Below, piece after piece: positions 172-20,155 of a stretch of DNA of 20,414 nucleotides. The notes under the pieces are model-generated. The model searched no databases. It worked only from the letters and a program-made list of their open reading frames with translations, and was not told the origin of the DNA. The position numbers were made by a program, and so were the translations under genes. The DNA lies in assembly GCA_023150835.1 (NCBI GenBank), contig JAKLKB010000126.1, positions 1 through 20,414 on the forward strand, read 5' to 3'. The stretch comes from Myxococcota bacterium. Lineage in GTDB: Bacteria > Myxococcota_C > UBA6777. Numbering within the stretch: the first letter of the stretch is position 1; each line of letters begins with the position of its first letter.

Positions 172-2154
172 TTACTTGGCGGGAGGGAGGGGAAGGCGGT
201 ATTTGCGGACTTCGGGTTGACGGATGCGATCTGCATAACGCTTTTCGACCTCGGCGATCACCTCGAAGAAAGCGGATTCCATCTTGGGGCCATCGTTTCC
301 TTGGAAGCCCTTGTTATCGACGTACAAGGTGCCTTTGTGACAGCCTTCTGCTTTTTCAGAACGCAAGCGCTTCGGATTGGCGGGGTCGGGGTAGATCCGA
401 TCACAAGAACCATGAATGCTCACACCGATCATCTTGGCAGCCTCTCCTACGGACATCAAGCCCGCACCTGCGGCCAACACCGAAGCCATATCGGGGCCGC
501 TCATCCCGTAGCCATGCCCCATGTAGATCACAGGATAGCGCTTGGTGGGGTTGGCGTGGAATCCGGGAGGCAGCACCACCGAATAGATCTGTTGGCGGCC
601 AAGTGCCTTAGACTCATAAAAAAAGTGGAGCGGTACCCCTTCTTGTTTTTCTTGATCGAGGGGGACTTTTTCAACATCTGCATCGGGCAATTGGTGCGCA
701 ACGAAACTGTAAAAAGAAAAGACGCGGTTGATAATACCCGATACTCCGTGGATATGGTCTCCATCCCCCGCAGCGATCTCTTCGGGGGTTGCGTTGGGAT
801 TACCGTACTGGATGTAGAGATGTTGGCCTTTGTCGCTCCAGTCCACTTTGTGCGGCTCGTACGGGCCTTTGCCTTCGGGCATCAAAGAAAGAAAGCGCTC
901 ATGTAGCGGTGCATGCTCCATCTTTTCGATACGCGCCCGAATCGCCCCAAGCAAGTTGATCCCCGTCACTTGGAAGTTGAGTAGATCACGGATACCGCCG
1001 TCGATATAGATGTTGAGACGTGAAAGTTGCGCGGGTGTCATCTTCAAGATCAACGAGTAGGGATCGTGTTTCATAAAGTTTTCATAGCCGGGCGTTTGCG
1101 TGAATTTCCCGTCTTTCTCGCCATAATCTCCCGTCCCTTCGACACCATCCAAACCAAAGTCTTTGTACGGTTCGCCTTGGTCGAACTGTAGGTTTCCTTC
1201 GAGGCCCTTGGGATTTTTGATGGGGTGATAGTTGTCGCCGTTGGGATCATCGCCGCCCGGGCCTTTTTGGCCTTCGGGTACACAGCCGCCCTTGCCGTCT
1301 TCGCGATCATCGCCACAACCATCGACGCCGACATCCTGATAACGCTCGTGAGGCGTGATCAACACAGGCTCTCCGTAATCTCTCTTGCCGTTGCCGTTTA
1401 GATCCAAGGCCAAGAAGACTTCGGTGGGGGCGTTGTGTAGCTCAGGCTTGTCGGGATAAAAAGTACCGCTTTTGTCCGTCCCATCGCAAAAAGTGATCAC
1501 ATCATACTCGCCTTTTGGGTTGTATTGATCGTGGTAAAACTTTTTGATGCGGATGGGATCGGCGCAACGGTCGGGGCGATCACGCCAATCTTTCGGTACT
1601 CCGGGCGGATAATAGGTGCTTTCAGGGTTGTAGTACGCAGGATTGCCAAACGCATAGAACACATCTTGCGTTGCGCGGATCAAGGAATTGCGATTCCAGC
1701 CGTTGTTACCGAGAGAACTGCTGTAGAACCAATTGTTAAAGTCCGAGATCAACTCAAACGGAAACTGTGGCTTCGGATCGACCGGCTTACAATAAGAGGA
1801 AGCCTCATTGAGTGTTCCGTCTTTCGCGGCCTGTTCGAGCTTTTTGAGATCACAAAAACCATTGGACACCATATTTTTGAGGTGCTGCAAAAAATAGGTG
1901 TGGTTGTTGAATCCACCCAGCGTACCGATGATATCGAACTTTTCATGATGCCGCAGCCCGAGCATCGCAGCAAATCCGCCGCCCATCGAGACACCCGCAA
2001 TCAGCCGATAATTCCACTGACGCTCAATGGTTTGGCCGGTGATCTCTTTCTTTTGGATGGGTTCTGTTGTGACGGTGCAGGCGGCCCCCCCAACGCACAA
2101 CACCCACAAAACAAACAACAAACACGCATGACGAGAGAAGCATCTAGTTTTCAC
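172..2154 (-). CDS. Secreted esterase-like alpha/beta hydrolase with circularly permuted motif order
   Basis: A 660-residue exported protein, probably an envelope or secreted esterase. The GTG start at 2154 is chosen because AAGGAG lies 6 bases upstream and a hydrophobic signal segment (12-25) ending in GGAAC (Cys26, a weak lipobox) follows. The longer reading from 2265 begins with TTG and has no ribosome site. The nucleophile elbow GVSMGG (Ser56) comes near the N-terminus. Candidate acids are Asp385/Asp389 in YIDGGIRD, and the candidate His is 467/469 in GDGDHIHG. The segment YSVVLPPGF...YPVIYMGHGYG (524-550), which in esterase D / PHB-depolymerase-like enzymes precedes the nucleophile, is at the C-terminus and is followed by EVEKRYADR (635-643), normally just before the elbow. 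Residues 251-351 hold Asp/Asn/Gly-rich calcium-loop-like stretches such as DLNGNGKRDYGE. Cysteines are frequent, consistent with disulfides. The substrate is unknown. It is monocistronic, with its own promoter at 2283-2311. Confidence 0.85.
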   Translation of the reverse strand: MKTRCFSRHACLLFVLWVLCVGGAACTVTTEPIQKKEITGQTIERQWNYRLIAGVSMGGGFAAMLGLRHHEKFDIIGTLGGFNNHTYFLQHLKNMVSNGFCDLKKLEQAAKDGTLNEASSYCKPVDPKPQFPFELISDFNNWFYSSSLGNNGWNRNSLIRATQDVFYAFGNPAYYNPESTYYPPGVPKDWRDRPDRCADPIRIKKFYHDQYNPKGEYDVITFCDGTDKSGTFYPDKPELHNAPTEVFLALDLNGNGKRDYGEPVLITPHERYQDVGVDGCGDDREDGKGGCVPEGQKGPGGDDPNGDNYHPIKNPKGLEGNLQFDQGEPYKDFGLDGVEGTGDYGEKDGKFTQTPGYENFMKHDPYSLILKMTPAQLSRLNIYIDGGIRDLLNFQVTGINLLGAIRARIEKMEHAPLHERFLSLMPEGKGPYEPHKVDWSDKGQHLYIQYGNPNATPEEIAAGDGDHIHGVSGIINRVFSFYSFVAHQLPDADVEKVPLDQEKQEGVPLHFFYESKALGRQQIYSVVLPPGFHANPTKRYPVIYMGHGYGMSGPDMASVLAAGAGLMSVGEAAKMIGVSIHGSCDRIYPDPANPKRLRSEKAEGCHKGTLYVDNKGFQGNDGPKMESAFFEVIAEVEKRYADRIRQPEVRKYRLPLPPAK

Positions 2155-7482: not shown

Positions 7483-10400
7483 TCACGATGCAGGACGCCG
7501 CAAGATCAATGTTGGCAAAGGTCGCAAGAAGCTGCGGATCGAAGCAAAGGGATCTTTTTTGTCCAGCGCAGCGATCGATTCGATGGCTCCTTGCGGCAGC
7601 AGCCGAAACAACGGTTCTTTCTTTTGAACTTCGGCCAGCAGGCGCTCGTGATCAAGCGGCGCTTGGGGATGAAAAAACACACGAAACTTTTCGCCCGAAA
7701 GCTCGCCTGATGTCGCAAACAACGCCTTGAGCAACAAGCGGATCTCCATGCTTTGGAACAGCCGCTCGCTCTCTCGTGGCAACGGCCCAAAGCGATCGAC
7801 GAATTCTTCGGATAGTTGGTCCAATTCGTCTGTATCAACAGCGGTTGACAAGCGTCGGTAGCACTGCAAACGCAACTGGATATCGGGGACGTAATCATCC
7901 GAGAGATAGGCATCGATCCCCAGCTTGACTTCGGGATCGATCTGCGCATCCACGGGCTTTCCTTGGAGTTCAGCCACGGCTTCTTGCAGCATCTCCATGT
8001 ACAACTCAAGACCGATCGCGTGGATGTGTCCCGATTGTTCCTTGCCAAGGAGGTTTCCAGCGCCGCGCATCTCGAGGTCATGGCGTGCGATCTCAAAACC
8101 CGCCCCCAACTCTGTAAAGCGCTGCAACGTCGCCAAGCGCTGCTTGGCTTCGGGGTTGATCCGCGCATCTGGCGGAACCAACAGCACCGCGTAAGCGCGT
8201 TCTCGACCGCGCCCGACACGACCCCGGATCTGATACAACTGCGCCAATCCAAACGCATCCGCTCGATTGACCAAGATCGTGTTGGCGCGGGGGATATCGA
8301 GCCCCGATTCAATAATCGAGGTACACAGCAAGATATTGTAGCGGCCTTGCACAAAGTCCAGCATCACCCGCTCCAAGTCTCCTTCTGGCATCTGACCATG
8401 CGCCACGATCACCCGTGCTTCGGGGACGATGCTGTGCAGCCATGCCTGCATCTTTCCGATATCTTCGACGCGGTTGTGAACAAAAAACACCTGCCCACCG
8501 CGATGCAACTCGCGCATCACCGCTTCTCGGACGATCTCATCGCTCAATGGCGCAACCGTCGTTCGGATCGCCAACCGATCCACAGGCGGCGTCGTGATCA
8601 ACGACAGATCTCGCGCTCCCACCATCGACATCTCTAACGTCCGTGGGATCGGCGTTGCCGTCAATGTCAGCACATCCACCTCACTGCGAAACTGCTTGAT
8701 CCGCTCTTTGTGCTTGACTCCAAATCGCTGTTCTTCATCCACGATCAACAAACCAAGATTCTTGAAATGCACGTCCCGCGACAACAATCGATGCGTCCCG
8801 ATCACCACATCGATCTTTCCTGCTCCCAACAACCGAAGCGATTCTTTTTGATCTTTCTCTGATTGAAAACGCGATAGCACCGCGATCTTGATCGGATACC
8901 CATCAAATCGCTCCATAAACGTTGCACCGTGTTGTTGCGCAAGCACCGTCGTCGGTACCAACACGGCCACTTGGCGACCGCTAAAAGCCGCCACAAAAGC
9001 CGCACGGATCGCCACTTCCGTTTTGCCATATCCGACATCGCCACACACAAGGCGATCCATGCATCGCGGAGATCGCATATCTTCCAATACGTCTTGGATC
9101 GCTTGGGCCTGATCGGGGGTCTCTTCGTAAGGAAAACGCGCCTCAAACTCGGCGTACAGCTCGGGGGATATCTCGATCGGCTCGCCCGAATGAAGCTGCC
9201 GCGTGGCATAGAGCTTCAACAAATCCCCTGCGATCGCTTGGATCGCTGCACGCGCTTTGGTTTTTTTCTTCTCAAAGGTGTTGCTTTTGAGCCGATCCAA
9301 CGGCGGATCGCCCCCGCCTGTATGCCGCTCGATCAAGTGCAGCTTGGTCACAGGCAGATAAAGGCGGTCACTTCCGTGATATTCTAGCAACAAAAAGTCC
9401 CCTCGCACGCCTTCCATCTGCACCGCATGTAGCCCCCCATAACGCGCCATCCCGTGTTCGCGATGGATCACCAAGTCCCCGACTTGAAGGCTTTGTAGCT
9501 CGGTCTCCAACAATATGCCTTTTTTCTTGGTCTTGGAACGTCGGGCTTTTGGGCCAAAGATCTCTTCTTCCGAAAGCGTCGCCAGCCGCGCCCGAGGAAA
9601 CACAAATCCCTCGGATATACGGCCCAAATAGATGCTGATAAGATGGCGTGGCGCATCTCGCCGAAACAACGACTCCATCGAAAAGCCGTCCTCGCAGATC
9701 TGCGCCGACATCGCGTACAACTCCAACAACTCGCGCAAACGCAACGCTTGCCCTTTTGTCCCACACGCGATCACCACCACCAAGCCTTCGGCTTGCCACA
9801 TCTTGATCCGCTCGATCAACGGCTGCAAACGATGCTCTTGCGATGCAGGGATCGAACGCAAAAGCTGCTTCAATCCCTCCTGCGACAACGACACATACGG
9901 CATCAACAACTCGCCCGCATCCCCAAAACGCACCCCTCCCACTTGACGGCGCGCCTCTCTCAAAAAAGCCGCTCTCTCCGCCTGCTTCTGCGCTTCATCC
10001 ATCACCACAGAAACAACAGGACCCGTCACACCGCCTTGCCCCGAGACAACGCCTTCTTGACTCCCACTTGCTCTACGAACAACCGCTGTGTCTTCTTCCC
10101 ACTCTTCGTACTCATCGGATGAATCAGAGTCGTCGCCTTCCTCGATATATTCTTCGCCCACTTCCAGACGCCCACCCACCGACCCTTCAGACCCAGTCAA
10201 CGTGTCGATCTCCGTATAGCCGTATCGACCGCCATACGCGATCTCTCCAGCACTTTCTCGATGGCCGATGCGCGGACCTCCCCCGTCCTCTTCGATCTCA
10301 TCCCCCCATTCATCCAACAACAGAGAAGATGAATCCTCCCATCCTTCCGAGCTATCCATCCCCATCTCATCCAAACCGCCGTACTCATCGGTGCTTTTCC

Positions 10401-11979
10401 TGCGGCCTTTTCGCCCCCGCAAAGGCGTCGTGCGCTTGGCCGCTGCCTTCGGGTAGACCGAAGGAGCAGGCTTGACCTCTGCTCGCTTTTGGGACACGCG
10501 CTTCTCACGGACAGACAACGACCCGCCACCTTCCACACTCAACCCACGCCCGACACGCCCTTGTTCCGAGAGGACTGCCCCTTGCGATGACGACCCTCCT
10601 TGCGATGACGCCGATGAGGCCGAGATAACCGACCCTTCCGATGAGGCCAATCCTTCCGATGAGACCGTTCCTTCCGATGAGGCCGATGAGGCCGATGAGG
10701 CCGATGCCCCTGCCGCCTCTGAGAAGGCCGTCCCGCCCGATGCACCCACCTCCTCCAAGAAGGCCACCCCTTCCGAGAAAACGGGCGCTCCCGATGCAGT
10801 CGAGGCATCCGAACCCACCGACTCTTTTGTCAACGTGGGCTCGGCTGAACTCCCAAGCAAAAAGACGGACTGGTGTTCGATGCGGCAGACGCGGCGCAAG
10901 GAAGATTCGATCTCTTTGGTGGGCAAAAGGAAGTCTTCGGGCGGGAAAGCGAAGCGCCCTTCTGCGCAAAGGGCGGCATAACTTTCTTGCATGCGCTCGG
11001 TGTAGGCGCGAGCTTCGAGCAGGATATCGCGGGGTTCATCAAGGATCAGGAGAGTTTCTTTTGGCAGATACGAGAACAGACTCTCCAACTGCTCGTAAAA
11101 TCCGGGGATCATCCCTTGGCTGCCAAAAGGACGGACATCTTCGCGGATATCGTCAAGCAACTGACGCCACTCTCGCGTCGGATAATGCAGGATATCCGCT
11201 TGGGCAGCAAATCGCCGATTGGCCCAAGACAAGTTTTCAGGAGTTCGCAAAAGCTCATCCACAGGACCGACCAATAATTCTTCGGATTCGCAAACGGTAC
11301 GTTGCGTTGTCGGTTCAAAGTGGCGGATCGACATCACCAACTGATCGTCGAGTTCCACCCGCGCAGGGAAACGATACAACGGCGAAAAGATATCGACGAC
11401 CGCCCCACGCACCGAAAAAGTCCCGCGATCTTCGACGACAGGGACTCGCTGATACCCCGCTTGTACGAGATGATGCAGCAACTTGTCTCGTTCTAATTCT
11501 TCCGCAACCGCGATCAAGTCGGACGCACGACTCAATACAGGCTTCGGCAACACCCGCCGCAATAGCGCTGCCGCAGGCATCACCATCACAGGAAAGTGCC
11601 GATGCTGTAACTGAAGCAAGCCACACAAGCGGCTTTGAATCGCCCCACGATCCGGCATCATCTCGCTATAAGGTAAGATCTCATCGGCTGCGTAATAGCT
11701 CAAACGCGACAACGCCGCGTGCGGATCCTCTCCACAAAAAAACTGGATATCTTCGTAGATCTGATAAGCCCGTTGCGGTTCTGGAGCCACAACCACCACA
11801 GGACGGTCTGGAAACGCGGCCAACAGACGCGAAACCAACCACGCCAAAGCACCCCCTACCAACCCCGAAAGCGCGATCCGACTGGCTTCTCCGCGTACTC
11901 GCCCGATCAGTTCTTCTACACTACAACCGCCCCACGGCAGATCTTCCCCCAAGGCATGATAGATCTCTTGTCGCGTCAT
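7483..11979 (-). CDS. mfd: Transcription-repair coupling factor Mfd with large low-complexity insert
   Basis: Mfd displaces stalled RNA polymerase and recruits the UvrA-containing excision complex. This copy has 1498 residues against about 1150 usually. Start ATG 11979 (MTRQEIYHAL) follows GAGAG; the longer reading from 12189 crosses the promoter. Domains in order: UvrB-homology module (about 1-375, including YYAADEILPYSEMMPD), an insert (378-660), D3 (about 690-800), RNA-polymerase-interacting domain (about 828-890, VGDLVIHREHGMARYGGL), translocase (about 940-1300) with Walker A GDVGYGKTE (980-988), DEEQ (1081-1084), TATPIPRT and GRVGRG (1253-1258), and the C-terminal TRCF domain (about 1340-1430). 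All motor motifs are intact, so the protein should work. Its sigma70-like promoter is at 12040-12069. The SurA-like trio begins 222 bp downstream and may be partly read through. Confidence 0.96.
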   Translation of the reverse strand: MTRQEIYHALGEDLPWGGCSVEELIGRVRGEASRIALSGLVGGALAWLVSRLLAAFPDRPVVVVAPEPQRAYQIYEDIQFFCGEDPHAALSRLSYYAADEILPYSEMMPDRGAIQSRLCGLLQLQHRHFPVMVMPAAALLRRVLPKPVLSRASDLIAVAEELERDKLLHHLVQAGYQRVPVVEDRGTFSVRGAVVDIFSPLYRFPARVELDDQLVMSIRHFEPTTQRTVCESEELLVGPVDELLRTPENLSWANRRFAAQADILHYPTREWRQLLDDIREDVRPFGSQGMIPGFYEQLESLFSYLPKETLLILDEPRDILLEARAYTERMQESYAALCAEGRFAFPPEDFLLPTKEIESSLRRVCRIEHQSVFLLGSSAEPTLTKESVGSDASTASGAPVFSEGVAFLEEVGASGGTAFSEAAGASASSASSASSEGTVSSEGLASSEGSVISASSASSQGGSSSQGAVLSEQGRVGRGLSVEGGGSLSVREKRVSQKRAEVKPAPSVYPKAAAKRTTPLRGRKGRRKSTDEYGGLDEMGMDSSEGWEDSSSLLLDEWGDEIEEDGGGPRIGHRESAGEIAYGGRYGYTEIDTLTGSEGSVGGRLEVGEEYIEEGDDSDSSDEYEEWEEDTAVVRRASGSQEGVVSGQGGVTGPVVSVVMDEAQKQAERAAFLREARRQVGGVRFGDAGELLMPYVSLSQEGLKQLLRSIPASQEHRLQPLIERIKMWQAEGLVVVIACGTKGQALRLRELLELYAMSAQICEDGFSMESLFRRDAPRHLISIYLGRISEGFVFPRARLATLSEEEIFGPKARRSKTKKKGILLETELQSLQVGDLVIHREHGMARYGGLHAVQMEGVRGDFLLLEYHGSDRLYLPVTKLHLIERHTGGGDPPLDRLKSNTFEKKKTKARAAIQAIAGDLLKLYATRQLHSGEPIEISPELYAEFEARFPYEETPDQAQAIQDVLEDMRSPRCMDRLVCGDVGYGKTEVAIRAAFVAAFSGRQVAVLVPTTVLAQQHGATFMERFDGYPIKIAVLSRFQSEKDQKESLRLLGAGKIDVVIGTHRLLSRDVHFKNLGLLIVDEEQRFGVKHKERIKQFRSEVDVLTLTATPIPRTLEMSMVGARDLSLITTPPVDRLAIRTTVAPLSDEIVREAVMRELHRGGQVFFVHNRVEDIGKMQAWLHSIVPEARVIVAHGQMPEGDLERVMLDFVQGRYNILLCTSIIESGLDIPRANTILVNRADAFGLAQLYQIRGRVGRGRERAYAVLLVPPDARINPEAKQRLATLQRFTELGAGFEIARHDLEMRGAGNLLGKEQSGHIHAIGLELYMEMLQEAVAELQGKPVDAQIDPEVKLGIDAYLSDDYVPDIQLRLQCYRRLSTAVDTDELDQLSEEFVDRFGPLPRESERLFQSMEIRLLLKALFATSGELSGEKFRVFFHPQAPLDHERLLAEVQKKEPLFRLLPQGAIESIAALDKKDPFASIRSFLRPLPTLILRRPAS
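10000..10848 (-). other. Tripartite low-complexity insert in Mfd (residues 378-660)
   Basis: About 283 extra residues sit between the UvrB-homology module and D3. Part one (about 385-485) is Ser/Gly/Ala/Glu-rich with repeated SSEG and SASS words, encoded by 9-bp DNA repeats near 10676-10710. Part two (about 490-530) is strongly basic (VREKRVSQKR, RGRKGRRKS). Part three (about 531-635) is strongly acidic and Tyr/Trp-containing (EEYIEEGDDSDSSDEYEEWE). The frame stays open throughout and the flanking domains are normal, so it is a genuine in-frame insertion and not an assembly fault. Confidence 0.85.
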
Positions 11980-12039
11980 GAATTTTATCTCTCTGTTGGA
12001 CTGGCTACTGCGCTTTTGCGTAGGCTTGGCAGCGCACGA

Positions 12040-12069
12040 ACCATAGGACGCCCCGATGATCGCTGTCAA
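12040..12069 (-). promoter_or_regulatory. Sigma70-like promoter of mfd
   Basis: On the minus strand a perfect TTGACA (12069-12064) and TATGGT (12045-12040) are 18 bp apart. Transcription would start near 12033, giving a leader of about 54 nt before ATG 11979. Confidence 0.65.
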
Positions 12070-12072
12070 GTC

Positions 12073-12140
12073 GAGCCTCCAGCGCACACCTGCCAAAACG
12101 CGGATTATCGGGAAAAAGCCTCCACATACGCAAGAGGCTC
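12073..12140. promoter_or_regulatory. Three AGCCTC words between divergent promoters, candidate shared operator
   Basis: Between the two divergent -35 boxes, GAGCCTC occurs at 12073-12079 and inverted (GAGGCTC) at 12134-12140, and AGCCTCCA occurs at both 12074-12081 and 12117-12124. The outer copies lie 3 bp and 1 bp from the -35 boxes of mfd and of the plus-strand gene. This arrangement would suit one regulator acting on both promoters, but the words are short. Confidence 0.3.
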
Positions 12141-12141
12141 C

Positions 12142-12171
12142 TTGAAAAAGAAGCCACACCACGTCTATGAT
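12142..12171 (+). promoter_or_regulatory. Sigma70-like promoter of the GYPPQPQ-protein gene
   Basis: TTGAAA (12142-12147) and TATGAT (12166-12171) are separated by 18 bp. Transcription would start near 12178, about 66 nt before ATG 12245. Confidence 0.6.
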
Positions 12172-12244
12172 GCCGCGATGGTTCGGCATCCCCCGTACCC
12201 TTCGCGCTCGCTTTGTTCGACGACTCTTTGAAGGAGGTTTTTGA

Positions 12245-14308
12245 ATGCCCTCTGAACAAGCAGATATGGCCGCTGCACAGGCTCAACAATACGACCCACA
12301 GACGAGTGCCGATCCGCAGGCTGCCATGCAAGGCCCCGACCTTTCCGCTCTCTCTCCACAACAACAACAAGCCTACCAAGACGCCTTCCAACAGGCCATG
12401 GAAGCCCAACAGCTCTACGCCAAAGCCCAAGAAGATTACCTCCAAGCCCAACAGTCCGGCAACGAGCAACTCGCCCAAGAAGCCTACCAACAAGCCCTCA
12501 ACGCACAACAAATGTACGGGCAAGCCCACCAGATCTACCTCTCCATCCTCGAACAAGCCCAACAAGCCCAAGCCTACGCTGCTCCCCCTCAATCTGCTCC
12601 CCCTCCGCAGGAGGCTCCCCCCCCCTCGCTCTCGCCCCAAGTCCCCTCCGCTCCCCCTCAGCAAGGAAGCCAAGGCAATATGCCTTACGCACAGCCACTT
12701 CAGGGTTATCCGCCTCAGCCTCAGGGTTATCCGCCTCAGCCTCAGCCTCAGGGTTATCCGCCTCAGCCTCAGGGCTACCCGCCTCAGCCTCAGGGTTATC
12801 CGCCTCAGCCTCAGGGCTACCCGCCTCAGCCTCAGGGCTACCCGCCTCAGCCTCAGGGCTATCCGCCCCAGCCTCAGGGCTACCCGCCCCAACCTCAGGG
12901 CTACCCGCCCCAACCTCAGGGCTACCCGCCCCAACCTCAGGGCTACCCGCCCCAACCTCCGATGTACGGGGGAAGTCAAGGCAGTATGGATCAGATCCAA
13001 GCCCCGGGTTATACGCAGCAGCCAAGCTATCCACAGCCTCTGCCGACCGCCTCGCCCGAAGCTTCGGCTGCATGGGAAGAAGATCTCGATGCAGGAGCCT
13101 CCTCGAACTCCGAAGGTGGCGGAGGCAAGCTATTTTGGATCTTCGTACTCGCCGTGTTGGCGGTCGCTGGCTACGGCCTCTACACCCTGACCAAAGACGA
13201 CCGCCCCAAACCCGACTTGAGTAAGTTCGACAAACCCGCTGCACCTCCCCAAACCAAGCAAGATCTCGAACAGATCCGACGTTCTTTCTTGGGCCTTGAC
13301 AAAGAAAAACCCTCTCCCCACCTGCGTTCGCTCGTCTTCTCCAAAAAAGACGCCAAGTGGAATCGACTTGTCCTTTCAGGAAAAGGCGATTGTATGACGT
13401 TGTTTCTTAGTGACGGAAAAGACGTTTACTCTGGTGAAGGCGGTATTGATCCCAAAGAACCCAAGCTCCTGCGCCGCCCTTTCCCCGAAGAAGACTTCCC
13501 CATGAATATGGCCCCCTTCAATAGCCGCATCCTCGATTTCCAATTTGCGCAGGGCCTCTCGGGCACTTACCTGTTGATCCGTCACCGCATCGAAGGCCGC
13601 ATCTGGTTGGCCATCTACACTTTGTTGGGCAACCCTTTGGATGAAAAAGAAAAAGGCAAAAAGAAAAAAGACGATGTGACGTGCGGATCTTCGGGACATA
13701 CCCACGTCAAACGCGAACATGTGATCTTGCTTGGAACAGGAAGCTGCAAAAAAGCCGCAAAAGATCTGGAGATCAAAACGCATCTTTGCAAAGAAGATAT
13801 CGATATCCCCGAAAAAGGGAGCGTCTTTTTTTTCCAAAGTGGAAAAGCCTATCCGCCCGAAGGCTCCGTCATCATCGGCTCGACGCGACTCGATCTCGGC
13901 CCGAAGCGTTTCGCCGCAGAAGCCAACGAGCGCGGCTTTGCCTCCCGCCTTACCGTCTCGACGCCCCCTTCACCTGATCGCAAAGGCAAGCGATGGATCG
14001 CCCTCGATCAAAGCACCGGGGTCTTGTGGGCTTTTGACAAAAAACTCCGTCAATCTAGCCTCAGCGGCCCTCTGCCCACCTCCGCAAGCAAAGCACTCGC
14101 CGCCCATCTCGAAAAAAACACCCTTCGCGTGGTCTTCCCCACCAAATTGATCCGCTTTTCTTTGAAAGGAAAGCAACTCACCGAAGACAAGAGCTTCGAC
14201 TTTGGCGAAAAGCTCCAGATCCACTACGCCAGTTGGGGCAACGAAGGCAAGATCCTGCTGTTTGCTACAGAAAAAAGCTCCATCTTCCAATACGACGAAT
14301 CTCCATAA
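12245..14308 (+). CDS. Single-pass membrane protein with Gln-rich N-terminus and GYPPQPQ repeats
   Basis: A 687-residue protein of no family I recognise. ATG 12245 has GGAGG 8 bases upstream. Residues 1-110 are Gln/Ala-rich and helical (repeated [18 protein letters not shown]-like units), a probable coiled coil. Residues 111-153 are Pro-rich. Residues 154-239 are 12 tandem GYPPQPQ units, one expanded to nine residues. After a Gly-rich hinge a transmembrane helix (about 295-315, [19 protein letters not shown]) leads to a C-terminal domain of about 370 residues with beta-strand-like segments, Trp/Phe-rich repeats ([25 protein letters not shown]) and an internal Lys-rich loop ([11 protein letters not shown]), perhaps a beta-propeller. 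With no signal peptide, the repeat region should be cytoplasmic and the C-terminal domain periplasmic. GYPPQ tails in eukaryotic proteins drive self-association; a similar role here is inference. Confidence 0.85.
12704..12961 (+). repeat. 21-bp tandem repeat encoding GYPPQPQ (12 units)
   Basis: Twelve in-frame units begin at 12704, 12725, 12752, 12773, 12794, 12815, 12836, 12857, 12878, 12899, 12920 and 12941; the second is 27 bp, and the last ends in PP instead of PQ. Synonymous choices shift along the array: early units use TAT and CCT-CAG, later ones TAC and CCC-CAA. The units at 12878, 12899 and 12920 are identical, so the 3' end expanded most recently. Confidence 0.95.
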
Positions 14309-14455: not shown

Positions 14456-17400
14456 ATGACACAACAGCCCCCTCTCTCCGCCGAAATCGACCTCGCCTCT
14501 CTCGAATCTCACGCCCGCTGGGCTCATCTGCTCTCGCACATCCCTGTCCTCTTACAGTCCATCCATCGACACGGACTTCAAAACCCCGAATCATGGGCAG
14601 AGATCATCCAAACACTCATCCCACACAGCCTTGCCGCGATGCTCTACCCCCATCACATCGCCCTCTGGACCTATCGCCCCCACCCAACACACCAAACCCT
14701 CCCTCTCTCTTTGCCTTCTCAAGACGTTTTCGCCTCCATACAAACCCTTTCTCACTCCCAACTCCCCCAACCTCTGCAACAAGCCCTGACAAAAATCACC
14801 CACCCTTTCCCCTCCGATATCCTCTGCGTACCCATCTCTCTTCTCCATCAGCGCATCGGAACCCTGTTGTGGTGGTTTTCCACACCACCCTCACCCCAAC
14901 AACAACACGCTGCCGTCTTGCTTTCCGAACAACTGTCTCCTCACCTTGCCCTCGCCCCCTTGTTGTCCTCTCCATCCGACGAGCCACTCCTTCAAACCTT
15001 TCTTCGTTCCGAAACGCTACGCGAAACCACCCCTTCTATCCGACAACTCAGCACCACCTCGGAGCCTCTTCTCGCTCCTCCCTCCACTTCCCACAATCCC
15101 CTTCCCAACGAACAACACCACCCACGCACAAAAACCACACACACACAAAAGCCACTCCACGCCCCACTCCCCCCTACAGAAAAAGAGACACACGCGATCG
15201 ACAACCTCTTTCCAAACAGCGATGATCTCTTCTTTCCCAACGACGACGATATCTTGTTCCCCAACGATCTCGAACCAACCTTGCCCGCCGCCCAACCCGC
15301 CGACCTTTCACCCACTCCAACAACTCCAACCTCGGCAGAAGAAAACCAACGCCTGCGTTCCGCCCTCGACGAAGCTCTGCGCACCGTCTCTCGCCTTCAA
15401 TCCACCTTGCATCAAGCCACCCAACTCGGCGAGGCACAAAGACAACAGCTTGTCGAATTGGCTCGCCTCAGCCTTGAGATGCACGAGCAGATCCGCGAAC
15501 TCCAAACCCAACGACGCCTCCAAACCCCCGAACCCTTTACACAACTCAACCAAGCCATCACACAACTACTGCCCAAACTCCAACGCTCTCTCGCCCAACT
15601 CGAAGAACATTACCAACACCTCGCAGAAACCCACCCCCAAGAAAGCCACGCCACTTACCAACTCACCAGCACCAGCCGCGCCTTGCTCAATTATCTCGCT
15701 CAGTGGTCTGATTACAATCGCTGCCTTCTCGGCCAGATCCAACCCAAGATCGCCGCTTTTTCGATCACCAGCTTGCTCGAACAACTCAAGCGCTCTTTTC
15801 GACCCCAACTCGAACACAAAGCCATCGTCTGGCGTTGGGAACTCCACCCACCCTCCCTCCCTGCCCTCGAAGGTGACGAAGAGATCGTCTCTTCCCTACT
15901 TTCATTGATCGTTGGCTACGCCATCGATCAATGCCCCCTACAAGGGCGCATCCAACTCACCCTTCAAAGCGATCAAACGGCCCCTCCTTCTTCGCTCCAG
16001 ATGCGCTTTGAATACCCCCACGTCTTCCTCGAAAACGCAGACCTCCAACGCCTTCTTGAACCCTTTGAAGAGCAAGCCCAACCCGTCTTTGTTCCCCGTT
16101 TGTCCCTCGCCCTCGCCAAACAACTCAGCCGCCTTCATCAAGGCCACCTCGCCCTCCAGTACAAAGACAAGCACCTCGTTGTTCTCTTGCGCTTGCCGAT
16201 CCAACTCCCCAAACGCGCCAAAGATGATCCACGCCCCGCCCTCGGCGTCACTCGCGAGCTCCCTTTGCTCCCAAGCTTCCCCAAACAATGGCGGCTTCCC
16301 TTCGCCGAACAACTCCAACATCTCTCGCCCCCCTACACCGACTCTCCCCCTCTGCCAACCGACTCCCCACACCTTTCTGCCGCCCCTTCCGTTGAAATAA
16401 AACATCCCCATCCCGCCGCCCATTCCGCCGAGATGCAACGCCACCACTCTTCCGCCGAGACACAACAACCCCTTCCTGCCGCACCTTCCGCCGAGACACA
16501 ACAACCCCTTCCTGCCGCACCTTCCGCCGAGACACACCCCCCTCATCCTGCCGCACCTTCCGCCGAGATATCTTCTGCTCTACGAAAGGCCTCCGCATCC
16601 GTCCAAACAGCACCTACCCAAACCACACAACGCTCCTCGCACGCCCCTTCCTTCGACACGCTCCCGCCCTCTAGTTCTGCGCGATCCGCCTCTCCTCTAC
16701 ACTCACCCTACGCTCCATCGACAAAACTCCATGCTTCCGACCTCTTCACCGATACCTCGCGACACTCGCCCTACAGTCCATCAGCAAAGCCCCATGCCTC
16801 CGGCCTCTCCGCCGACACCTCCGAACCAGAGATCGAATTTATCGAACTCACCCCCACCCACGCCCCCCACGATCTCGCTATCGCTCCCCCCATCCATCCG
16901 CCCTATGGTAGCAACCCAAGCTCCACCTTTGGACAACTCGACACGCTCGCCAAACAATTCCCCCTCTACCCCATGCAAGGCCCTTCTCTTCCCGTCTCCG
17001 AAGACAAACACGCTTCCCGCACGCTCTCCGCTCACCCAAAACCCACCCCCACCGCCCTTGTCTACGGAACCGCCAGTGGCGCGGGCGAAGAACCTCAACT
17101 CCTCGACGGCTTCCAATTCCTCCAATTGGAAAATCACCTCTTCCCCACCCTCGAAGAACTCGCCCATCAAGCCCAATTCCGCCCTCCACGCTTGATCCTC
17201 TTTGGACCTGACGATCAGCAGGCCCCCCAACTCAAAACCCTGCGCACGCGCATCGAAGACAACGTCCGCATCCACGTCCCCATGCTCGAAAAACAAGGTA
17301 GCATCGACTTTTATCGCTTTCATTGGAGCCACTACCGCAGCCTTCCCTTTAGCGCCACTCACCTGCTCCAATGGCTCCAATCTGTCCGCATCGCCCGACC

Positions 17401-17929: not shown

Positions 17930-20155
17930 GTGGAAACCCTTGGTAAATATCGCCTGCTGCGCCGTGTCGCGGTCGGTGGAATGGCGGAGATCTTTCTTGC
18001 TGAACAACCCGGACCTGCGGGCTTTTCCCGACGTGTCGCCATCAAACGCATCCTACCTCACCGTGCCGATGATGCCGAATTTGTCGAGATGTTCCTCAAT
18101 GAAGCCCGACTCGCCGCGATGCTCAACCACCCCAACATCGTCCAAATCTACGATCTCGGCCAGATCGGCCAAACCTACTTCATCGCGATGGAGTTTGTCG
18201 AAGGCTACGATCTCGGCCAGATCCTCGACCAGATCGAAAACAAAGGCGAAAAAACACCTCCGCTCTACGCCGCCCATATCATCGGACAAGCCGCTGCTGG
18301 ACTCCATTACGCCCATCAATACCTCGACCCCCAAACCAACACCCCTCTCGGTTTGATCCACCGCGATATCAGCCTCCCCAATATCATGGTCTCCAACGAA
18401 GGCATCGCCAAAGTTCTTGACTTTGGTATCGCAAAAGCCCGCATATCCGGTGAAGAAGCCCGAAAACAAACTCAAACGGGTGTCCTCAAAGGCAAGATCT
18501 CTTATATGTCGCCCGAATATCTAATGGGCGATCCCATCGATTGGCGACACGATATCTTTGCTCTCGGTGTCGTCTTCTACGAACTCGTCACGGGACAAAA
18601 GCCCTTCAAAGCACGCGGCGATGTCCAGATGCTCCAAGCCATCCTCACCCAAGAACCCACCGATCCTCGCGAATACCATTCCTCTCTCCCTGCTCCCCTG
18701 ATCCCCATCATGATGCGCCTGCTCGCCAAAGAACCCAACCAACGCTTCCAACACGGCGCAGAACTCGAACACGCCATCGAACAATGTATCCTCGCTTGCA
18801 CAGGCGGCGAGATATCCCAATTCTACCTCTCCGAATTCTTACGCACACTCTTCTCGGACGCACCCACCCACGCCCCCGAACCCACCCGCTCCATCCCACC
18901 TAGCGCACTCTCCCCCCAACGCACCGCCTCCCCGACCAGCAACGCTCCCGCATTTCGCACCACTTCTCCCACCGGCAACGCTCCCGCATTTCGCACCACC
19001 TCCCCCACAGGCGAATTTACGCCCCTCCCCGATCCACAATCTCCTCTCAAATCAAGCACCTCTTCCCCCAATCCTCGCAACAATCCTTGGGCCGAAGAAA
19101 CCCGATCTATCGATATCGGCCAACTCAACGCCGCCAAGATCAGCCAGATCGGTGCCTCCAAAGGCCCTCTCCATCTCCCCGAACCTACTCCCACCGCCGC
19201 TTTGATCTTGCGCCCCGATCAAAACCTCAAATCCATGTCCCTCCAAGAGATCGCCGCCCTTCAACCCGGACCCAAAGCCCCCCTCACCCCCATCCCTGTC
19301 GATCCCAAAGAACCCACCCCTCCGCATGCCATCCCTGCCATCCCTCCTCCCAAAGAGCTTCCCACTTGGATCTACATCGTCCTACCTTTTCTGATCGTCC
19401 TCTTGATCGGCTTGGTCTTCATCCTCTGGCGTCTGCGCGCACAACGCACCGCACCGCCCACTCCACCACCCATCCAAGCCCAAGCCCCCGATGCTGGAAC
19501 CACCACACCTCCCATCCTCCCCGCTCGGCGCGTCGATCCCCCCACCCGCCCCACGCCTCCCATCATCCCGCAACCCAGATCTCCTGACGCCGGAACCACC
19601 GCGCCGATCACACAACCCGATACACTCCCCGATATCTCGCCTTCTTCTGATCCGCAGATCGAGATCGGCGAAGCCAGTCCCCTCCCCGAAGCCGATCCAA
19701 CCCCACCCGAAACCACCCCACCCACCGGCAACGCCTCGCTCCTGCTCTCCGCCTCTCGGCCTTGCCCCTGCAAACTCTACATCCGCGAACAAGCCTACAC
19801 CATCTCCGGAAAACCCACCCCGATCTCCCTCGAAGAAGGACCGCACAACCTGATCTTGCGGCGTTCCAAACCCCACATACACCTGCCTTTTCGCATCCAA
19901 ATCAAAAAAGGCGAAACCCTTCGCAAGCATCTCCAGATCCGCGAAGGATACCTCTCCGTCACCGTCACTCCGTGGAGTTCCAAAGTCTTCCTCAACAAAG
20001 ACTACATCGGCACCACCCCACTCCGACCGATCCGCCTCTACCAAGGCGTCCACCAACTCCGCATCGACAACATCGAACACCTTAATCGGCCCATCACAAA
20101 AACCATCTTCATCCGACCCCATACCCAACTCCCCATCCGTATCCGTATCCGCTAA
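17930..20155 (+). CDS. Ser/Thr protein kinase, membrane-anchored, with C-terminal PEGA repeats
   Basis: A 741-residue Hanks-type kinase. The GTG at 17930 is chosen because GGAGG lies 5 bases upstream and the protein then begins at ETLGKYRLLRR, where such kinases usually start; the ATG at 17825 has no ribosome site. The kinase domain (about 6-290) has VAVGGMAE, Lys39 (VAIKR), Glu58, HRDISLPN (144-151), DFG (164-166) and GKISYMSPE. HRDIS carries Ser where Ser/Thr kinases usually have Lys (HRDLK), a variant common in myxobacterial kinases. A Pro-rich linker (310-478) has a 12-residue duplication. A transmembrane helix (480-500) is followed by a Pro/Thr spacer and two PEGA-like repeats (about 601-668 and 672-731, VTPWSSKVFLNKDYIGTTPLRP...). 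Fold and anchoring imply a cytoplasmic kinase with a periplasmic or cell-wall-facing sensor. The gene follows the pseudo-histidine-kinase gene by 198 bp. Confidence 0.92.
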   Translation: METLGKYRLLRRVAVGGMAEIFLAEQPGPAGFSRRVAIKRILPHRADDAEFVEMFLNEARLAAMLNHPNIVQIYDLGQIGQTYFIAMEFVEGYDLGQILDQIENKGEKTPPLYAAHIIGQAAAGLHYAHQYLDPQTNTPLGLIHRDISLPNIMVSNEGIAKVLDFGIAKARISGEEARKQTQTGVLKGKISYMSPEYLMGDPIDWRHDIFALGVVFYELVTGQKPFKARGDVQMLQAILTQEPTDPREYHSSLPAPLIPIMMRLLAKEPNQRFQHGAELEHAIEQCILACTGGEISQFYLSEFLRTLFSDAPTHAPEPTRSIPPSALSPQRTASPTSNAPAFRTTSPTGNAPAFRTTSPTGEFTPLPDPQSPLKSSTSSPNPRNNPWAEETRSIDIGQLNAAKISQIGASKGPLHLPEPTPTAALILRPDQNLKSMSLQEIAALQPGPKAPLTPIPVDPKEPTPPHAIPAIPPPKELPTWIYIVLPFLIVLLIGLVFILWRLRAQRTAPPTPPPIQAQAPDAGTTTPPILPARRVDPPTRPTPPIIPQPRSPDAGTTAPITQPDTLPDISPSSDPQIEIGEASPLPEADPTPPETTPPTGNASLLLSASRPCPCKLYIREQAYTISGKPTPISLEEGPHNLILRRSKPHIHLPFRIQIKKGETLRKHLQIREGYLSVTVTPWSSKVFLNKDYIGTTPLRPIRLYQGVHQLRIDNIEHLNRPITKTIFIRPHTQLPIRIRIR
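18941..19012 (+). repeat. 36-bp tandem duplication in the kinase linker
   Basis: Two units encode NAPAFRTTSPTG (18941-18976 and 18977-19012) and differ at only a few synonymous bases. Confidence 0.9.

Follow-up and report, generated by a model that had tools for sequence, protein, structure and literature searches.

The window, meaning the whole stretch of DNA that was analysed (20,414 nucleotides), is contig JAKLKB010000126.1 of a Myxococcota bacterium (assembly GCA_023150835.1). Close to one end it carries an esterase-like gene with the following features.

172..2154, minus strand: whole gene, an intact ORF (GTG start at 2154, stop at 172-174) for a 660-aa esterase-like protein, predicted to be a permuted lipoprotein
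2077..2154, minus strand: signal peptide, residues 1-26, ending in the lipobox-like VGGAAC (Cys26); lipoprotein processing is predicted from this motif
1861..2022, minus strand: N-terminal block, residues 45-98, matching the second half of the PF00756 core (strand 5, nucleophile elbow, strand 6) in profile and 7XRT comparisons
1987..1989, minus strand: Ser56, nucleophile predicted from conservation (GVSMGG, residues 54-59)
1045..1860, minus strand: large insert, residues 99-370 (~270 residues), between strands 6 and 7, colinear throughout the family and without counterpart in natural-order PF00756
1369..1404, minus strand: EF-hand-like loop DLNGNGKRDYGE, residues 251-262, a putative calcium-binding site
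1117..1182, minus strand: second acidic, Gly-rich conserved loop, residues 325-346 (D..E...D.G.DG.....D.GE in a 10-member alignment)
985..987, minus strand: Asp390, catalytic acid predicted from conservation and from alignment to the natural-order Asp
754..756, minus strand: His467, catalytic base predicted from conservation
637..690, minus strand: putative new linker, residues 489-506, mapped between the old C-terminus (past the His helix) and the old N-terminus (strand 1)
220..636, minus strand: C-terminal block, residues 507-645, matching the first half of the PF00756 core (strands 1-4 and the following helix) in profile, 7XRT and PDB comparisons
511..516, minus strand: His547-Gly548, oxyanion-hole turn predicted from conservation

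Three other loci in the window were recorded. The mfd gene (7486-12189, minus strand; transcription-repair coupling factor) encodes ~590 residues between the UvrB-interaction and RID domains, including a long low-complexity acidic and Ser-rich stretch; in E. coli Mfd this gap has roughly half that length. A 21-base repeat that encodes GYPPQPQ is present in twelve copies (12700-12959) in a gene for a protein of unknown family (12245-14305, plus strand). In-frame repeats of 36 bases (ETQQPLPAAPSA and similar) are present at 16449-16568 and 18920-19008 in two adjacent genes, of which one encodes a protein that has no Pfam match and the other a PEGA Ser/Thr kinase.

A sequence-only reading of this DNA had proposed an esterase D-type hydrolase with a rotated motif order, and the positions were confirmed in the intact ORF. 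The GVSMGG motif is N-terminal, with Ser56 located 30 residues after Cys26, as the reading had it, while YSVVLPPGF (524-532), HGYG (547-550) and EVEKRYADR (635-643) lie near the C-terminus of the 660 residues. The protein ends ~15 residues past the last core helix. Cys26 was invariant across six proteins of the same phylum, and anchoring as a lipoprotein is suggested by the signal peptide. The putative linker (489-506) was variable in the 10-member alignment and was flanked by conserved blocks.

Homology of both halves to PF00756 was observed by several methods. The Pfam profile matched the protein with 33.8 bits (cut-off 22) in two stretches, residues 45-84 corresponding to profile positions 113-151, and all 10 family members in the alignment tested also matched. 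In a phmmer search of PDB sequences, CE1 esterases were matched by both ends of the protein in swapped order, the C-terminal matches being 5vol, 7xrt and 7b5v. Profile-profile comparison (hhalign) of 43 family members with 40 natural-order PF00756 sequences, several from the same genome, aligned natural positions 20-143 with the C-terminal block (score 142.0, E 8e-19) and 147-184 with the N-terminal block (score 75.6, E 1.7e-9) when the order was left as found; positions 197-252 matched the Asp segment weakly (score 36.3, probability 30%). When the family alignment was rotated at residues 100-497, the first two pieces were joined into one alignment (score 202.8, 161 columns), which was broken again by rotation points within the C-terminal block. 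The two blocks meet at natural positions 143|147. In the feruloyl esterase 7XRT, the C-terminal block corresponded to residues 24-143 and the N-terminal block to 143-209, the junction falling at residue 143. As a control, natural-order proteins were scanned with the family profile and also gave the rotated order. A continuous PF00756 domain with the oxyanion block N-terminal to the Ser motif was not found, and the reverse order was present in all 82 complete homologues. As the matching chain ends are complementary, contiguous and single-copy, they indicate a rotation rather than a duplication or a second domain.

The ends are thus swapped without being duplicated and their order is conserved under selection, the two sequence properties sought in a circular permutant. 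The protein is very probably a naturally occurring, circularly permuted alpha/beta hydrolase of the CE1/esterase D type (PF00756), exported as a lipoprotein and with one shared active site. The cut proposed by the sequence-only reading, just before the nucleophile strand, agrees with complementary ends that meet at 143|147 and share one residue of 7XRT, and its esterase D-type assignment was borne out by the PF00756 and CE1 matches. AlphaFold2 run on the single sequence without an alignment gave a model of too low confidence for use (pLDDT 35.5, pTM 0.24). Mean-field covariation on 83 sequences (Neff 74), a shallow set dominated by gaps and ancestry, gave no signal between the chain ends.

The predicted Ser-Asp-His triad of PF00756 is reflected in the conservation of the family. 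Ser56 was Ser in 78 of the 83 homologues and Gly in the other five. The earlier candidates for the acid were Asp385 and Asp389; Asp385 is present and nearly invariant (81 Asp, 2 Glu), but the second Asp is Asp390 (DGGIRD = 385-390), which was kept in 83/83 homologues and is the residue aligned with the natural-order PF00756 acid. For the base, His467 and His469 had been put forward. The former was kept in 80/83, with gaps in the other three, all from the Ser-less clade, whereas the latter was not conserved (Asn in L008). His467 was assigned by position and conservation rather than from an alignment with the natural-order His. The oxyanion residue Gly548 was kept in 77/83 homologues and was Asp in exactly the five Ser-less sequences; His547 was replaced by Pro in 13/83.

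The insert (99-370) had no Pfam domain match. In the loop DLNGNGKRDYGE, D251 and E262 were conserved in 83/83 homologues and D259 in 82/83, with Asn or Asp at 253 and 255 in all. The conserved residues at loop positions 1, 3, 5, 6, 9 and 12 agree with a canonical 12-residue EF-hand loop, but position 8 is occupied by Arg and none of the Pfam EF-hand models matched. Invariant residues of the second loop in the 10-member alignment were D325, E328, D332, G334, D336, G337, D343, G345 and E346. A cap is usually placed after strand 6 (PMC11878206), which is where the insert lies. The insert probably needs calcium, judging from its loops.

The five Ser-less homologues (L023, L024, L073, L074 and L075, from one phylum) carry Gly for the catalytic Ser and Asp for the oxyanion Gly, have an unclear His segment with most of GDGxH also lost, and keep the calcium-like loops. 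They are probable pseudoenzymes and form one clade, so that they count as one or few loss events. Catalysis may not be the sole function under conservation, as this Ser-less lineage retains the insert. This raises the alternative that the protein is permuted and folded as proposed, with binding, as a calcium-loop surface protein, as its conserved function and the hydrolase site secondary. That all the acidic residues of the insert are kept by the five homologues with Gly for Ser is in agreement with a binding function, but the Ser in 78/83, the Asp in all and the His in 80 argue against it, and this alternative seems unlikely.

The family is CE1-like by sequence. Significant homology of both halves is shared with CE1/esterase D-type enzymes (PF00756; feruloyl esterases 7XRT, 7B5V and 1JJF), as are the GxSMGG elbow, the LPPGY...YPVxYxxHG block and an Asp on the strand past the cap position. 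In contrast to these enzymes, the permuted family has a rotated order, a large insert with EF-hand-like loops, predicted lipoprotein processing and, in many relatives, extra N-terminal domains. In type 1 PHB depolymerases (NCBIfam NF050058) the order is normal; a weak similarity at the Ser motif was detected in 5 of 10 members (best 2e-5), far under the curated 150-bit cut-off.

Type 2 PHB depolymerases provide a precedent for this order that the sequence-only reading did not mention. The paper on 2D80 reportedly described a circularly permuted fold. These enzymes are not known to have an EF-hand-like insert. Their lipase box is followed by the Asp, the His and, last, the oxyanion hole (PMC2666664), and 2D80 has Ser39, His155 and Cys250, the oxyanion residues being Cys250/Leu251 (PMC7034887). 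The Penicillium funiculosum enzyme (2D80/2D81) has nearly the same cut, with the Ser N-terminal and the oxyanion residues last, so the kind of event is already known. The shared motif order (PMC2666664, PMC7034887), together with a weak colinear match to 2D80, might place the protein within this known type, as a product of the same permutation event. This is very unlikely: 2D80 was matched at E 0.28 and over the Ser block only, compared with 1.3e-21 for the normal-order CE1 esterase 7XRT, its oxyanion pair is Cys-Leu rather than His-Gly, and NCBIfam matches were limited to CE1 and the type 1 depolymerase. The linker and substrate-binding domain of type 2 enzymes are also absent. Membership of the type 2 depolymerases was rejected on sequence grounds. 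The permuted family belongs with the CE1 esterases as far as its sequence is concerned, and its origin is likely to be independent of the type 2 permutation. No description of a permuted CE1 esterase was found in the open-access papers searched, which does not imply absence elsewhere.

A different objection is that the halves do not form one domain in one chain, the protein being a domain-swapped dimer or a pair of half-domains with another role. Swapping is compatible with the topology taken alone, but neither half would make a complete sheet, the two complement each other and occur once each, and in the Ser-less clade the Ser, the oxyanion Gly and the His segment have decayed jointly, as expected of one active site to which both chain ends contribute. 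We consider this objection most improbable.

The permuted order was found in 83/83 distinct ORFs from four phyla, both blocks being present in 82 and one ORF being cut by a contig end. No insert-bearing protein in normal order was found among these 83. The gene was present in 5/5 genomes examined of its own phylum, 76/282 of the G251 phylum, 2/2 of the G048 phylum and 6/7 of the G184 phylum. In a sample of 386 genomes from across the domain, its own family and five others gave matches at E <= 1e-25; viral contigs were scanned for homologues and none was found. A second copy (69% identical) is present in its own genome, and PF00756 proteins of ordinary order are encoded in the same genome as the permuted gene. 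Compared with the copy in the nearest named relative, Myxococcota bacterium isolate KLAP109, the window gene had a dN of 0.0067 and a dS of 0.227 (dN/dS ~0.03), indicating purifying selection. Only 171 bases separate the window gene from the contig end, which could suggest that the order is an artefact of assembly or sequencing, or that a frameshift conceals another, complete hydrolase, much as the sequence-only reading had considered for a sequencing error; the same order in independent genomes and the low dN/dS refute this and leave it a negligible probability. The permuted arrangement is real, old and still selected.

Many relatives from the G251 phylum have ~200-380 extra residues N-terminal to the Ser block, in which no Pfam match was found except a weak Ig-like one. 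The gene neighbourhood revealed no functional association shared by the family as a whole. At the second copy (contig C71 of G000) and in G004, the immediate downstream neighbour of the permuted gene, on the same strand, encodes a zinc-ribbon Ser/Thr kinase (64% identical; L162:3-1847 and L156:5839-8031, both minus strand); the kinase adjoining the window copy is only ~36% identical. Three genera of family f203 encode a ~1000-aa protein without a clear Pfam family immediately upstream of the permuted gene (L158:4589-7654, L164:4992-8069, L159:11731-16176).

In the proposed permutant, the chain would start at the nucleophile strand with Ser56 and continue through strand 6, the cap-like insert, the strand bearing Asp390, and then His467 and the helix associated with it. 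The new linker would then lead to strands 1-4, with the oxyanion residues HG547-548, and to the helix that normally leads into the nucleophile strand. Both chain ends would thereby lie in one sheet, with one Ser-Asp-His active site for ester cleavage, covered by the insert, which probably requires calcium. Only as a guess by analogy with CE1 relatives, the substrate could be an acyl ester of a polysaccharide from the cell wall or the environment.

A quick tree was built on the two shared blocks of 82 permuted sequences; 77 grouped together (support 93), and the five Ser-less ones were placed apart on long branches, a result still compatible with one origin. A single origin is favoured because the insert is common to the members. 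It would most likely have begun with a normal-order domain that was duplicated in tandem or fused, the outer halves then being lost, and the rotation may either predate the divergence of the carrier lineages or have spread between them by transfer. Two tandem normal-order PF00756 domains (128-406 and 432-687) were observed in L031; an arrangement of this type could yield a permutant if the outer halves were lost.

Natural circular permutations with good support are few in the alpha/beta hydrolase fold, one of the largest enzyme folds. Databases score the permuted family as fragments of ordinary esterases, and these enzymes are probably mis-annotated as partial. If its origin is independent of the PHB depolymerase case, the permutation would represent a repeated evolutionary route. 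A conserved family cut at the nucleophile strand, beside ordinary-order relatives in the same genome, is a natural experiment on the tolerance of permutation and on selection.
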